Below are positions 41,434 to 45,484 of a stretch of DNA of 64,000 nucleotides, piece by piece; the first letter of the stretch is position 1, and each line of letters opens with the position of its first letter. The position numbers and the translations under genes were made by a program. The stretch lies in the NCBI RefSeq assembly GCF_041361345.1, contig NZ_JBGKAD010000001.1, forward strand, positions 1,364,001 to 1,428,000, written 5' to 3'. The notes under the pieces were generated by a model. The model had not been told where the DNA came from and did no database searches. It worked only from the letters and a program-made list of their open reading frames with translations. Origin of the DNA: Halobaculum sp. MBLA0147. GTDB lineage: Archaea > Halobacteriota > Halobacteria > Halobacteriales > Haloferacaceae.

Positions 41434-42057
41434 ATGCTCAAGGACACAGAGGCGGAGCGGGGTCAGGTAGGGATCGGGACGCTCATCGTGTTCATCGCGA
41501 TGGTGCTGGTGGCGGCGATCGCTGCCGGCGTCCTGATCAACACCGCCGGCTTCCTCCAGTCGAAAGCGCAGGTGACCGGTGAACAGTCGACACGGCAGGT
41601 CACGGACCGCCTGCAAGAGGTCGTCACCACCGGAAAGGTCGACTCGAACGACGAGATCGACGAAGTTGAGGTGACGGTGACACAAGCGCCGGGTGCCGGC
41701 GAGATCGATCTCACGAACCTCTCCGTGACATGGATCGGCGAGGACGACGCGTACGTCTACGTGTATGGTGACTCTGCCGGGGAGACGAGCGGTATCAACA
41801 CCGGTGCCGACGAGACGTTCGGTGTCTCTGTGGTGCGTAACGAGGGAGAGACCGAGAGTGGAGTCACGGTATTGAACGACCCTGACGATCGATTCAACCT
41901 GTTCTTCGATCTCGACGCAGTCAGCGACGGTGGAGCGAACGAGATCGGGGCGGGTGAGTCGGTGACGTTGAAACTGAACACACAGTCCGGTGCGACGACG
42001 ACGATTCGCTTCACAGTCCCCGAGGCACTCGGTGGGAAGCAGTCTGTCCTGTTGTGA
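41434..42057 (+). CDS. arlA: Archaellin (flagellin) paralog 1
   Basis: A 207-residue filament subunit of the archaellum. The class III signal peptide (MLKDTEAERGQ) would be cleaved by the FlaK/PibD peptidase before or after the Gln, exposing the hydrophobic assembly helix [35 protein letters not shown]. The outer beta domain follows (about 60-207), acidic and with an N-glycosylation sequon (NLS). The GC content is slightly lower than the neighbours. A likely TATA (ATGTTATTGG, about 41386) precedes the ATG at 41434. No archaellum motor or export genes are in the window. Confidence 0.95.
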   Translation: MLKDTEAERGQVGIGTLIVFIAMVLVAAIAAGVLINTAGFLQSKAQVTGEQSTRQVTDRLQEVVTTGKVDSNDEIDEVEVTVTQAPGAGEIDLTNLSVTWIGEDDAYVYVYGDSAGETSGINTGADETFGVSVVRNEGETESGVTVLNDPDDRFNLFFDLDAVSDGGANEIGAGESVTLKLNTQSGATTTIRFTVPEALGGKQSVLL

Positions 42058-42735
42058 AGTGTTTCGGGGCGAGTGGTTTGAGACATCTCGCGCCTCGTCG
42101 TCGCGGCAATCATCGATTTCCGAATGACCCGAGGTTGTTCGGGCTCGCACTGTAGCAGACGGATTGAATCCCTCCCGACCTTTTGTGTTGGAGGTTCGCT
42201 GGAATTCGCATTCGAACACCTCACTGGTGTCTGTGAGAGTCGGCATCTTCACCCCGCCTAACGACACTCGTATCACCGCCAGTGGTAAATTTGTGTCGCA
42301 CTTCCAAACCTCCGAGCGATCGCTTCACATCGAGGCGTTCGGCGACGCTGTTCTGGCCATTTTCCTGTGTGTAGTCATAGATGCTTCGGTATGGTTTGCC
42401 CCGAGGTCGAGTAGTTCAAAACGGGAGGCGCCTCGTCGTCACGAAGGTCTTCGATGTCCAAACGGTCCCGAGAGACTCCGCCCGCTCGGTCTGTAGACGC
42501 CGACTCGTCGAATCCCTACTCACGACTCTCGTACACTCCCCACCAGTGACGGTCGGTCTTTCCGACGCCCACCAAGCTCGGAATGCAGACTGTCAAACTA
42601 CCGGACAGCGGCGATACGCCAGTGTCCGTATGCGGTAGAGAGCCCGAGTATCGAACGAGATAATTAGTACAGTGGATTTTTTATTGGCGTGCCAGAAGAA
42701 CAGGGTACACCCTGATAGAACGGGGACCACGACAC
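42058..42735. other. 678-bp spacer between archaellin genes, no gene supported
   Basis: Less GC-rich than the rest of the window. The open frames of 85-110 codons here have no protein-like composition, signal or family resemblance and overlap each other. A TTTTTTATTGGCG element near 42672 precedes the second archaellin and is its probable promoter. A degenerate gene remnant cannot be excluded. Confidence 0.6.
42669..42680 (+). promoter_or_regulatory. Probable promoter of archaellin 2
   Basis: TGGATTTTTTATTGGCG spans about 42669-42685. The same A/T-rich theme (TTTATTACTCGG) occurs upstream of archaellin 3 and ATGTTATTGG upstream of archaellin 1. It lies some 60 bases before the ATG, so the message would carry a leader, unlike most genes here. 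Confidence 0.5.
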
Positions 42736-42932
42736 ATGTTCAAGGACACAGAAACGGAGCGGGGTCAGGTAGGAATCGGGACGCTCATCGTGTTCATCGC
42801 GATGGTGCTGGTGGCGGCGATCGCTGCCGGCGTCCTGATCAACACCGCTGGCTTCCTCCAGTCGAAGGCACAGACCACGGGTGAACAGTCGACGAAACAG
42901 GTCTCCGACCGGGTCCAGGAAGTCGTCACGAC
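42721..42932 (+). repeat. 212-bp block identical to 43788-43999
   Basis: From CGGGGACCAC to GTCACGAC the sequence is identical base for base to 43788-43999 (offset 1067), covering the last 15 bases of leader and the first 197 coding bases. Upstream the sequences diverge at once, and downstream after one mismatch. Identity at synonymous sites points to recent duplication or gene conversion. Confidence 0.9.
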
Positions 42933-43332
42933 GGGGACGGTCGCGGACAACAACACGGTCACAGATGTCTCCGTGACGGTGACGCAGGCACCGGGTGCCG
43001 GTGAAATCGACCTTGAGAACCTCACGGTCAACTGGGTTGGGGAAGATAATTCCTATGTCTACGTCCAGAATAGTGACGGTGCGAGCGGTGCGGACGACAG
43101 CTTCACCGTCGAGGTCGTCCGTAACGAGGGCGACTCCAGTGGAGCGACGGTACTAAACGATCCCGACGACCGTTTCAACCTCGTGTTCAACCTGGAGACC
43201 ACTTTCGCGGCCAACCCCCTCGGCGAGGGGGAGTCGGTGACGCTGAAGCTGAACACGCAGGCTGGCGGGACGACGACGATCCGGTTCACTGTCCCTGAGT
43301 CGCTTGAGGACAAGAGCTCCGTCCTCCTGTAG
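42736..43332 (+). CDS. arlA: Archaellin (flagellin) paralog 2
   Basis: A 198-residue archaellin. The signal peptide ([11 protein letters not shown]) and helix are followed by a beta domain with N-glycosylation sequons (NNT, NLT). The first 197 coding bases and the 15 bases upstream are identical to archaellin 3, while the variable domain differs. A second block coding [21 protein letters not shown] is also nearly identical. A T-rich tract (CTCCTTTTGTTTTC) follows the stop and may terminate transcription. Multiple archaellins in haloarchaea can be alternative or co-assembled filament subunits; which applies here cannot be told. Confidence 0.95.
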
Positions 43333-43802
43333 GACAGCTCTCCTTTTGTTTTCGCCGACACATACGAGCGGTACGAGTCGGGCATCTGTGGTGTGTGGGT
43401 CGCAGTCCCGTCCACAACCGGTGGTGTACAGATACGACCAGATCGTCGGACGAAATTAGCACTCAGAGAGTCTCGATCTGCCGCCGGACGGCTGTTGAGC
43501 GAAAAGCCTCCCGCACCCGACACACGGCAAGACCGCCGGTCACACGGTCTCCCGTCGACGCCCGACACTGGCGCGCCTCACACGTTTCCCTCGCTTCTCC
43601 TCCGTCGGGGCACGCTCTGACGAGGGATCACTCCGCTCGCGAGGTCCCTGCATGTTTCTCGCGCACCACCCACAGCGGTCAGCGTATCCGAACACCGCCC
43701 TATGACAACCCCGGACCCATTATCAAGATAAATAACTGGTGGGTGTGGTTTATTACTCGGACATTACTATCTGCCTCCATCCCCACTCGGGGACCACGAC
43801 AC
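43333..43802. other. 470-bp spacer between archaellin 2 and 3 with a dispersed repeat
   Basis: No gene is supported. It holds a T-rich terminator-like tract at 43342-43356, a minus-strand copy of the dispersed repeat (43519-43674) and an A/T-rich promoter region for archaellin 3 (ATCAAGATAAATAACTGG at 43722-43739 and TTTATTACTCGG at 43749). Confidence 0.65.
43519..43674 (-). repeat. Dispersed composite repeat, copy B
   Basis: Read on the minus strand: GTGGGTGGTGCGCGAGAAAC, CCTCGCGAGCGGAGTGA, CTCGTCAGAGCGTGC and GACGGAGGAGAAGCGAG, and about 35 bases later GACCGGCGGTCTTGCCGTGT. The first four elements match copy A (10819) and copy C (45021); the last matches 26283 and 44950. About 80% similar by eye. 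Confidence 0.65.
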
Positions 43803-44432
43803 ATGTTCAAGGACACAGAAACGGAGCGGGGTCAGGTAGGAATCGGGACGCTCATCGTGTTCATCGCGATGGTGCTGGTGGCGGCGATCGCTGCCGGCGT
43901 CCTGATCAACACCGCTGGCTTCCTCCAGTCGAAGGCACAGACCACGGGTGAACAGTCGACGAAACAGGTCTCCGACCGGGTCCAGGAAGTCGTCACGACA
44001 GGGAACGTCGCCTCTGGCAGCAATGAAGTCAACGGTGTGAACGTGACGGTGACGCAGGCACCGGGTGCCGGTGAAATCGACCTTGAGAACCTCACCGTCA
44101 ATTGGGTCGGTGAACAGCAGTCGTACGTGTACGTCTACGAGGGTGCCGACAGTAACTCGATCGGCAGTGGTGCGTCGACGGGTGGCGCGGACGCGCTGTT
44201 CGACATCGAAGTGATCCGCAACGAGGGCGACTCCGCCACCGACGCCACGGTGTTGAACGACGCCGACGACCGATTCAACCTCGCGTTCAAATTGAAGCAG
44301 GACAACGGCCCGAACTCGATCGCGGAGGGTGAGTCGGTGACGCTGAAGCTGAACACGCAGGCCGGCGGCATCACGACGGTCCGGTTCACCGTCCCCGAGT
44401 CGCTCGAAGACAAGAGCTCCGTCCTTTTATAA
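43803..44432 (+). CDS. arlA: Archaellin (flagellin) paralog 3
   Basis: A 209-residue archaellin with the same N-terminal 66 codons as paralog 2 and a different outer domain, richer in Asp, Ser and Gly ([30 protein letters not shown]). N-glycosylation sequons NVT and NLT are present. The ATG at 43803 is set by identity with paralog 2. A T-rich tract (CCGTTTTTTGAAG, about 44450) follows the stop and may act as terminator. The C-terminal LEDKSSVLL is shared with paralog 2, QSVLL with paralog 1. Confidence 0.95.
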
Positions 44433-45484
44433 ACGGACGAACCGGTCGACTCCGTTTTTTGAAGACGCGACAAGGCACCTCCAGTTGCGACGCTCTCTCG
44501 TCCGACCGCGTTCCGTTTGAAGATGTTCTCTCGCCACGGGATCGGACGACAGGAAGAGACAGTGTGGCTTGGCCGGTAGGCCCCGAGGGATCTGTAATCC
44601 GTCGTGTCCATTAGGGGGATACCGCGATAGAGGGACGGGACGAATGTCTCGGGATCTTTCGAGCGACAGTCTCCCTCTCGTGATGACGGGACACCTTCGG
44701 TGTCTCGGACCACTCGATACTCGGGAACGCTCTACGGTCGTTCCGCACACTACCGTACCGGCGAGTACGGTTGCGACGGACTACGTTCGTCCGCAACGCT
44801 CACCACGTCCGTCCATGACGGTACCCCTCGTCTTGGGACGATAGTGTGCAGGTACGGCCGAGTCGTCGAGGAAGACTACTGCTTGGAAGGCCCCGAGGTG
44901 CCGTCAAGCGGTTCCCGGTACCGTGCGGCGATCCCACGCGTGACTCTCACCACACCCGGCACGTAGCGAGACCGCCGGTCTCACCACAGTTGCAGTCGAG
45001 GCATGGCACCGTCCACACCTCGCGTGCTTCGCTCGCGCCAACGGAGGAGGAGCAAGCTCTGAGAGATTCCCACTCCGTCGGGGAAGCCTCTAGCGTTTCT
45101 TGGGTGCCGTCCGCAGCCGTCGGCTCGTCCGAATACCACCCTTCGGATGTATGGCCGACGGCAAAGTCCAGAGTCCGTCTCGAATGGAACGTCGTCGGTT
45201 GTGGCCGCCACGTTCGGTTCCCTCCATCCACTCGTTCACACGTCCCCGATTGACCGTCACGATCCGGTCGTCTTCACCGACGGAGAGAACCGCCTGTGTC
45301 CGTGCTGGCTTCGTGTCACTTTCGTCCGCCGGCTCCGAGGCGGGCGAGACGACCGACACCAAGTCGATCGAGTGCCGTCGACCCGCCGTCAGAGGAACGG
45401 GAGTACCGGCGTAGAGATCGAGTAGACGAACGGACGACGGCGAACGTCGCTCCGTCGGCGTTGCGAAGAGTGACCGGACGACCC
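44433..45484. other. 1052-bp region without a supported gene
   Basis: Several open frames of 60-135 codons occur on both strands, none with family features. The minus-strand frame ending at 45090 has about 45 codons with protein-like bias (AVLSVGEDDRIVTVNRGRVNEW) then loses it, perhaps a gene remnant. The region also contains copy C of the dispersed repeat (44950-45108). Its base use is less GC-rich at 44433-44700. Confidence 0.55.
44950..45108 (-). repeat. Dispersed composite repeat, copy C
   Basis: Read on the minus strand: CACCCAAGAAACGCTAGAGG, CCCCGACGGAGTGGGAATCT, CTCAGAGCTTGCTCCTCCTC and GGCGCGAGCGAAGCACGCGA, then GTGAGACCGGCGGTCTCGCT and ACGTGCCGGG, whose GAGACC-GGC-GGTCTC is a perfect hairpin. 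The same hairpin element is at 26283-26313 (GCGAGACC-GGT-GGTCTCGC, then GTGTGCCGG). Confidence 0.65.

Follow-up and report, generated by a model that had tools for sequence, protein, structure and literature searches.

What keeps the beginnings of two neighbouring archaellin genes identical down to the synonymous sites when the remainder of the same genes differs strongly? The question is raised by a haloarchaeal locus in the window analysed here (the whole stretch of 64,000 nucleotides, G000:C1:1364001-1428000), which comes from a genome of 4.29 Mb in 6 contigs and holds a tandem of three complete archaellin genes on the + strand:

41434-42057, + strand: A1, archaellin, first paralogue, 207 aa, Pfam Arch_flagellin 124 bits
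42736-43332, + strand: A2, archaellin, 198 aa, Pfam Arch_flagellin 126.5 bits
43803-44432, + strand: A3, archaellin, 209 aa, Pfam Arch_flagellin 116.4 bits

With 116.4-126.5 bits, all three genes pass the curated cut-off of the Arch_flagellin family (PF01917, 29.5 bits), and they score 38.4-39.2 bits against TIGR02537, the archaellin/type IV pilin N-terminal domain (cut-off 20). Together with a fourth archaellin described below (A4), they remain at 117.8-130.1 bits under the cut-off of 210 that defines the flagellin subfamily NF006325 (NCBIfam). The solved structure nearest to A2 by sequence is the archaellin 9eq7 (E 9e-38), and the best matches to A2 outside its own genome lie in genus g5, of the Halobaculum group. 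An AlphaFold2 model of A2 (one model, six sequences) shows a helix at residues 13-43 and strands at 51-53 and 60-69 onward; with a mean pLDDT of 60.8, it serves only as a loose guide to the point where the shared block ends. Since spacers of 678 bases (A1/A2) and 470 bases (A2/A3) separate the genes, the three apparently do not form a single tight operon. Two parts of the A1/A2 gap (42400-42484 and 42581-42654) match 44636-44788, located 3' of A3, on the opposite strand at 66-68% (E 6e-4, valid for the four intergenic stretches compared), and these are possibly decayed repeats.

Elsewhere in the genome, A4 is found at C1:59762, 1.35 Mb away, and a divergent archaellin at C3:178450, the matches of the Arch_flagellin type numbering eight in all. 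Archaellum machinery is represented by Arch_fla_DE at C1:1613943, about 205 kb from the window archaellins, and two more Arch_flagellin-type matches adjoin it (C1:1613-1614 kb). In three other species of the window's genus (G001-G003), the motif-bearing archaellins have 458-486 aa where complete, next to other, weaker matches with smaller open frames. No orthologues of A1-A4 were found in these three species, and the four genes may have been acquired by transfer.

The stretches of exact identity between A2 and A3 are the following:

42721-42932, + strand: 212-base block, A2 copy, exact match extended base by base
43788-43999, + strand: 212-base block, A3 copy, exact match extended base by base
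42972-43025, + strand: second exact tract, 54 bases, conserved segment, A2 copy
44042-44095, + strand: second exact tract, 54 bases, A3 copy
43231-43262, + strand: third exact tract, 32 bases, C-terminal conserved strand, A2 copy
44331-44362, + strand: third exact tract, 32 bases, A3 copy

An earlier note on this DNA had described the block as identical from 15 bases before each ATG, synonymous sites included, and had pointed to a second conserved segment, to a similar yet non-identical paralogue A1, and to strong differences between and after the shared segments; all of this holds. The block comprises the last 15 bases before the ATG, the signal peptide and the N-terminal helix, and ends inside codon 66. 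Its edges are sharp, the 120 bases on its 5' side matching in register at 37/120 positions, which is about chance level. A fourth exact stretch of 17 bases lies near the 3' end of the genes, and between the exact tracts the linker and the outer domain have strongly diverged. Over the block, A1 is 87% identical with a longest exact run of 74 bases, and A4 is 91% identical; the upstream stretch of A1 has no clear match to those of A2 or A3. The pattern is mosaic, as a 20-base stretch of the linker is common to A3 and the distant A4 (10 polymorphic sites in a row; p 0.007, uncorrected for six pairs).

The different age of the two parts is most apparent from synonymous differences counted solely where both codons encode one residue. 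Between A2 and A3, 0/55 such codons differ in the N block and 30/93 beyond it (Fisher 2e-7), so that the block must be far younger than the remainder of both genes. In the same N block, A1 and A2 differ synonymously at 10/51 codons and A2 and A4 at 9/52; compared with these counts, the zero of the A2/A3 pair has p-values of 4e-4 and 1e-3, and it is thus not set by constraint alone. On these synonymous counts, the block is recent and the A2 and A3 genes are old: a sharp-edged tract of synonymous identity lies in an otherwise diverged pair. A Sawyer-type permutation over A1-A4 gives a longest A2/A3 run of 31 out of 222 polymorphic sites with p 5e-5, the lowest value that 20,000 shuffles can return. 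The runs test on synonymous differences in invariant residues only, again over A1-A4, is non-significant (run of 12/50, p 0.11), partly because the second segment of A2 and A3 is nearly identical too.

The best explanation of these observations is probably gene conversion between old tandem paralogues, to which we give a probability of about 0.85. The earlier note had offered either gene conversion or a recent duplication, and the first of these two proposals is the one strengthened by the age contrast, the sharp edges and the presence of several tracts. A2 and A3 would be old tandem paralogues in which a recent non-reciprocal transfer overwrote the end of the leader, the signal peptide and the N-terminal helix, either gene being a possible donor, and the shorter exact stretches elsewhere may represent further or older tracts. 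Homologous recombination would be confined mostly to the helix-coding part, the longest stretch still similar enough for pairing, and the block should be kept pairable by purifying selection, which acts on the helix common to the paralogues and on the peptidase site. We propose that the outer domains escape conversion since they are too diverged to pair. The result may in turn be retained by selection, as archaellins are processed by a common peptidase and assemble into filament cores of one type. In Haloferax volcanii, gene conversion between genome copies has been reported to be very efficient, with tracts much longer than those seen here (PMC8223754, as far as its passages go); short tracts are what the diverged outer domains would permit.

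We then asked whether other haloarchaeal genomes carry similar patterns, using a sample of 93 archaellins from 36 genomes plus three more genomes of genus g5, which is tied to Halobaculum by the named loci L045 and L046. Nine scanned loci were devoid of a gene with the search motif (L044, L072, L084, L089, L090, L092, L093, L097 and L100). Truncated genes were removed from the pair counts, as was L046, a repeat of G007 with the protein of its L142 gene; the nearest-neighbour and between-genus comparisons were made without the two named Halobaculum loci, and the split match G278_L162 was omitted. For the comparison of N and C parts, proteins had to measure 150-300 aa and pairs needed enough comparable codons. 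Nine other genomes also contain exact tracts of 95-152 bases between archaellins of one genome. In 155/177 within-genome pairs, the midpoint of the longest identical run falls among the first 70 codons, a count that is weak by itself since the residues of these codons are nearly invariant. A more telling figure is the number of pairs whose synonymous difference in the N part is less than half that of the C part, namely 23/62 tandem and 20/115 dispersed pairs within genomes (the window's own genome included) versus 6/400 sampled pairs between genera; within-genome paralogue pairs are not independent, and small p-values are thus a guide only. The N block is also somewhat slower at synonymous sites in general (0.492 vs 0.579 between genera). 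When genera are pooled, its mean synonymous difference is 0.31 within genomes (182 pairs), 0.28 between different species of one genus (439 pairs, mostly from the Halobaculum group) and 0.48 between genera (5265 pairs), which means that within-genome N blocks are no closer than those of same-genus species at this pooled level. Little homogenisation and large core differences were found in G023 and G025, which have 7 and 9 archaellins. The nearest N block lies in the own genome for 3/6 genes in g28 and for 8/19 in g13 (one of the 8 being a tie). In g46, two tandem archaellin types resemble one another and a third type keeps its own N block, its nearest relative being the same type in another genome for 5/5 genes. 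These comparisons suggest that N-block homogenisation recurs in several haloarchaeal genomes, albeit patchily. In G045 (L071), by contrast with the partly identical A2 and A3, the archaellin genes at 591 and 1430 share 652 identical bases and represent a duplicate of the whole gene.

Whether an archaellin part follows its locus or its genome could be addressed in five g5 genomes, a genus other than that of the window, with 5-7 archaellins each. Flanking DNA defines six syntenic groups, assigned by hand from cross-genome flank matches, and yields 36 cross-genome pairs that are not independent. The outer domain is closer to its orthologue than to the mean paralogue in 33/36 of these pairs, with identities of 64% between same-locus orthologues and 48% between within-genome paralogues. 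The N block tends the other way, the mean paralogue being nearer than the orthologue in 25/36 pairs; in g13, g28 and g46, judged by the nearest N blocks, the picture is mixed. Synonymous codons of the N block differ by 25% between orthologues, 22% between paralogues and 26% between non-syntenic genes of different genomes. By these nearly equal values, the locus has left hardly any trace in the N block of the Halobaculum group. When genome labels are shuffled, closeness within rather than between genomes has, at synonymous sites, p-values of 2e-4 (N block), 0.001 (second conserved segment), 0.05 (C-terminal strand) and 0.34 (outer domain), and at all sites 2e-4, 0.08, 0.003 and 0.35, respectively. 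By these tests, homogenisation within genomes affects broadly the same regions as the exact tracts of A2 and A3. Of 29 genes, 8 find the nearest neighbour of their N block in the own genome and that of their C part elsewhere, and 3 show the reverse; for 11 genes both neighbours lie in the own genome and for 7 both lie outside it. The view of the earlier note that the signal and the assembly helix are homogenised as the outer domains diverge thus extends from A2 and A3 to their relatives. In G278_L152, the outer domain is only 36-42% identical to those of L158, L155 and L143, with both flanks conserved; a replaced outer domain is possible at this locus.

The same locus-bound outer domains bear on a further proposal, compatible with gene conversion and placed atop it, in which the shared blocks act as crossover sites of a switching system that swaps outer domains or promoters. 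As the direct repeat already includes the 15 bases in front of the ATG, one crossover between its 212-base copies would delete 1067 bases and place the A3 outer domain behind the upstream region of A2. A comparable event is known from Halorubrum lacusprofundi ACAM 34, whose sole archaellin gene combines the signal peptide of flaB1 with the remainder of flaB2, a chimera that its authors ascribe to recombination and deletion in the passages of that paper (PMC7349177). According to the available parts of a second paper, the two-gene form of H. lacusprofundi dominates in lakes, and archaellin switching has been proposed to possibly lower virus infection (PMC6011602). Our case resembles the ACAM 34 versus DL18 comparison, as far as the passages describe it, in that recombination affects the 5' part of tandem haloarchaeal archaellins and leaves the downstream part unchanged (PMC7349177, PMC6011602). 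It differs in that both genes persist in the window and a longer tract was copied, whereas in H. lacusprofundi, by the same partial account, a gene was deleted and a chimera left (PMC7349177). Against a switching system, A1-A3 are complete genes with separate upstream sequences, the intergenic stretches show no cassette fragments (tblastn best E 0.06), and the variable parts of the Halobaculum group stay at their loci in 33/36 syntenic pairs from the five genomes, G278_L152 being a possible exception. Judged from the genes alone, the locus is not organised as one expressed copy with silent donors. A signal-less archaellin-like frame beside A4 (L043:12781-13491, equal to G000:C1:60780-61490) matches Pfam weakly, at 33.7 bits for a cut-off of 29.5, and is devoid of the GQVGIGT motif that the other archaellins carry. 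With no more than 17 exact bases in common with A1-A4, it is no recent donor; it could be a degenerate gene copy or encode a protein that serves a different role. The recombinational switching of the filament surface envisaged in the earlier note is therefore left unsupported, and a switching system seems quite improbable to us. By analogy with H. lacusprofundi, recombination near the start of an archaellin gene can happen, and any regulated or selected switch is a candidate only. In a related proposal, which we hold to be improbable, the homogenised 5' module would be a selected recombination platform that keeps separately regulated archaellins able to exchange promoters and outer domains. 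If this were true, clonal populations would carry differing filament surfaces, for instance against archaella-binding viruses.

A very unlikely reading is that the block owes its identity to selection on its DNA or RNA (codon context, RNA structure or a hidden binding site) and not to copying. What speaks for it is the near invariance, across the order, of the codons ATC GTG TTC ATC GCG ATG at their synonymous sites. GTG and GCG occur together at the same two codons in 414/489 pattern-matching sites (181/293 genomes, order-wide), where the codon usage of archaellins outside the core would predict about 10%. However, the core has many other codons that vary synonymously from species to species, A1 and A4 depart from A2 within the block at the codons counted above, and the conservation mostly reflects general codon context. 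Codon pairs were counted in predicted genes, over 464 kb of this genome (the window plus L164-L183, genes being picked by a simple frame score and unannotated) and over 100 kb from each of four others. In the 464-kb sample, alanine before ATG is encoded by GCG in 151/154 cases versus 50% overall, and valine before TTY by GTG in 211/316 cases, a general context that explains most of the GTG and GCG conservation. The bias at alanine is weaker in the four other genomes (33/52, 25/36, 19/25 and 29/32). A hidden element at the six codons, with the palindrome CATCGCGATG, was considered as a candidate and rejected, mainly owing to this codon-context bias. A residual remains at the valine, with GTG at 8/9 positions in the archaellins of G025 (non-independent paralogues) versus 22/95 valines before TTY in the sample of that genome. 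Outside the order (48 genomes) both codons are free; as the residue there is mostly isoleucine, the contrast is weak. CATG is only mildly depleted in the genome sample, at 0.9 of expected, so that word avoidance alone seems insufficient for the GCG-before-ATG bias. The most depleted tetranucleotide of the sample is CTAG, with 89 observed versus 248 expected.

The other proposal of the earlier note, a recent duplication of a whole archaellin gene, here combined with rapid subsequent positive selection on the outer domain, has hardly any chance of being correct. It would account for the tandem position of A2 and A3 and for a similar segment of about 190 bases that lies 3' of both genes:

43511-43701, strand unassigned: segment 3' of A2, 65% similar to 44950-45142 (local blastn)
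44950-45142, strand unassigned: segment 3' of A3, partner of 43511-43701

The alignment covers 197 columns with E 7e-15, a value valid for the small set of four intergenic stretches. Yet a similarity of just 65% downstream and unrelated sequence upstream are at odds with a recent event, as are the synonymous differences at about a third of the same-residue codons beyond the block; selection at the protein level does not drive synonymous divergence. Since the sequence outside the tracts is old, recent whole-gene duplication finds no support, and the two downstream segments likely remain from an old duplication that comprised the gene and DNA 3' of it.

Finally, short exact repeats are prone to mis-joining, and an assembly artefact is nevertheless the remotest of the readings, given that both copies of the block have different flanks on a contig of 3.0 Mb and that the exact archaellin tracts of the nine other genomes point the same way.

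Gene conversion also acts in genes of surface-exposed proteins of bacteria. In Neisseria pilE/pilS, where the N-terminal part of pilin is conserved, and in Borrelia vls, silent cassettes feed one expression site and conversion alters the variable part. The conversion favoured here for A2 and A3 would likewise act on genes of surface-exposed proteins; unlike in those systems, it is the constant part that is homogenised, and no cassettes were found. Another parallel is the long-lasting concerted evolution of prokaryotic genes, which includes the flagellin gene fla of Alteromonadales, again a case in which paralogues encoding the subunit of a homopolymer are more alike than orthologues (PMC6053082, in part). 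In contrast to the cases presented in the passages of that work, only part of the archaellin gene is homogenised here; the seven archaeal genes reported there to evolve in concert are all from methanogens, and archaellin is absent from the entries those passages contain (PMC6053082). Several archaellins with differing properties also coexist in Haloarcula marismortui, where these ecoparalogues show salt-dependent expression and assembly; the abstract of that study makes no mention of conversion (PMC6528647). Among the open-access titles and abstract openings listed, a collection that subscription journals mostly lie outside of, none concerned concerted evolution or conversion of archaellin N-terminal regions.

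Similarity between archaellin paralogues has been read as recent duplication, at least in the passages of one study (PMC7349177). Where conversion homogenises N blocks, trees and duplication dates that lean on these blocks would mislead, and the outer domains would be older than they appear. For haloarchaea more broadly, our results suggest that conversion can act on paralogue tracts of a few hundred bases, alongside the far longer tracts described between genome copies in the available parts of the Haloferax volcanii work (PMC8223754).
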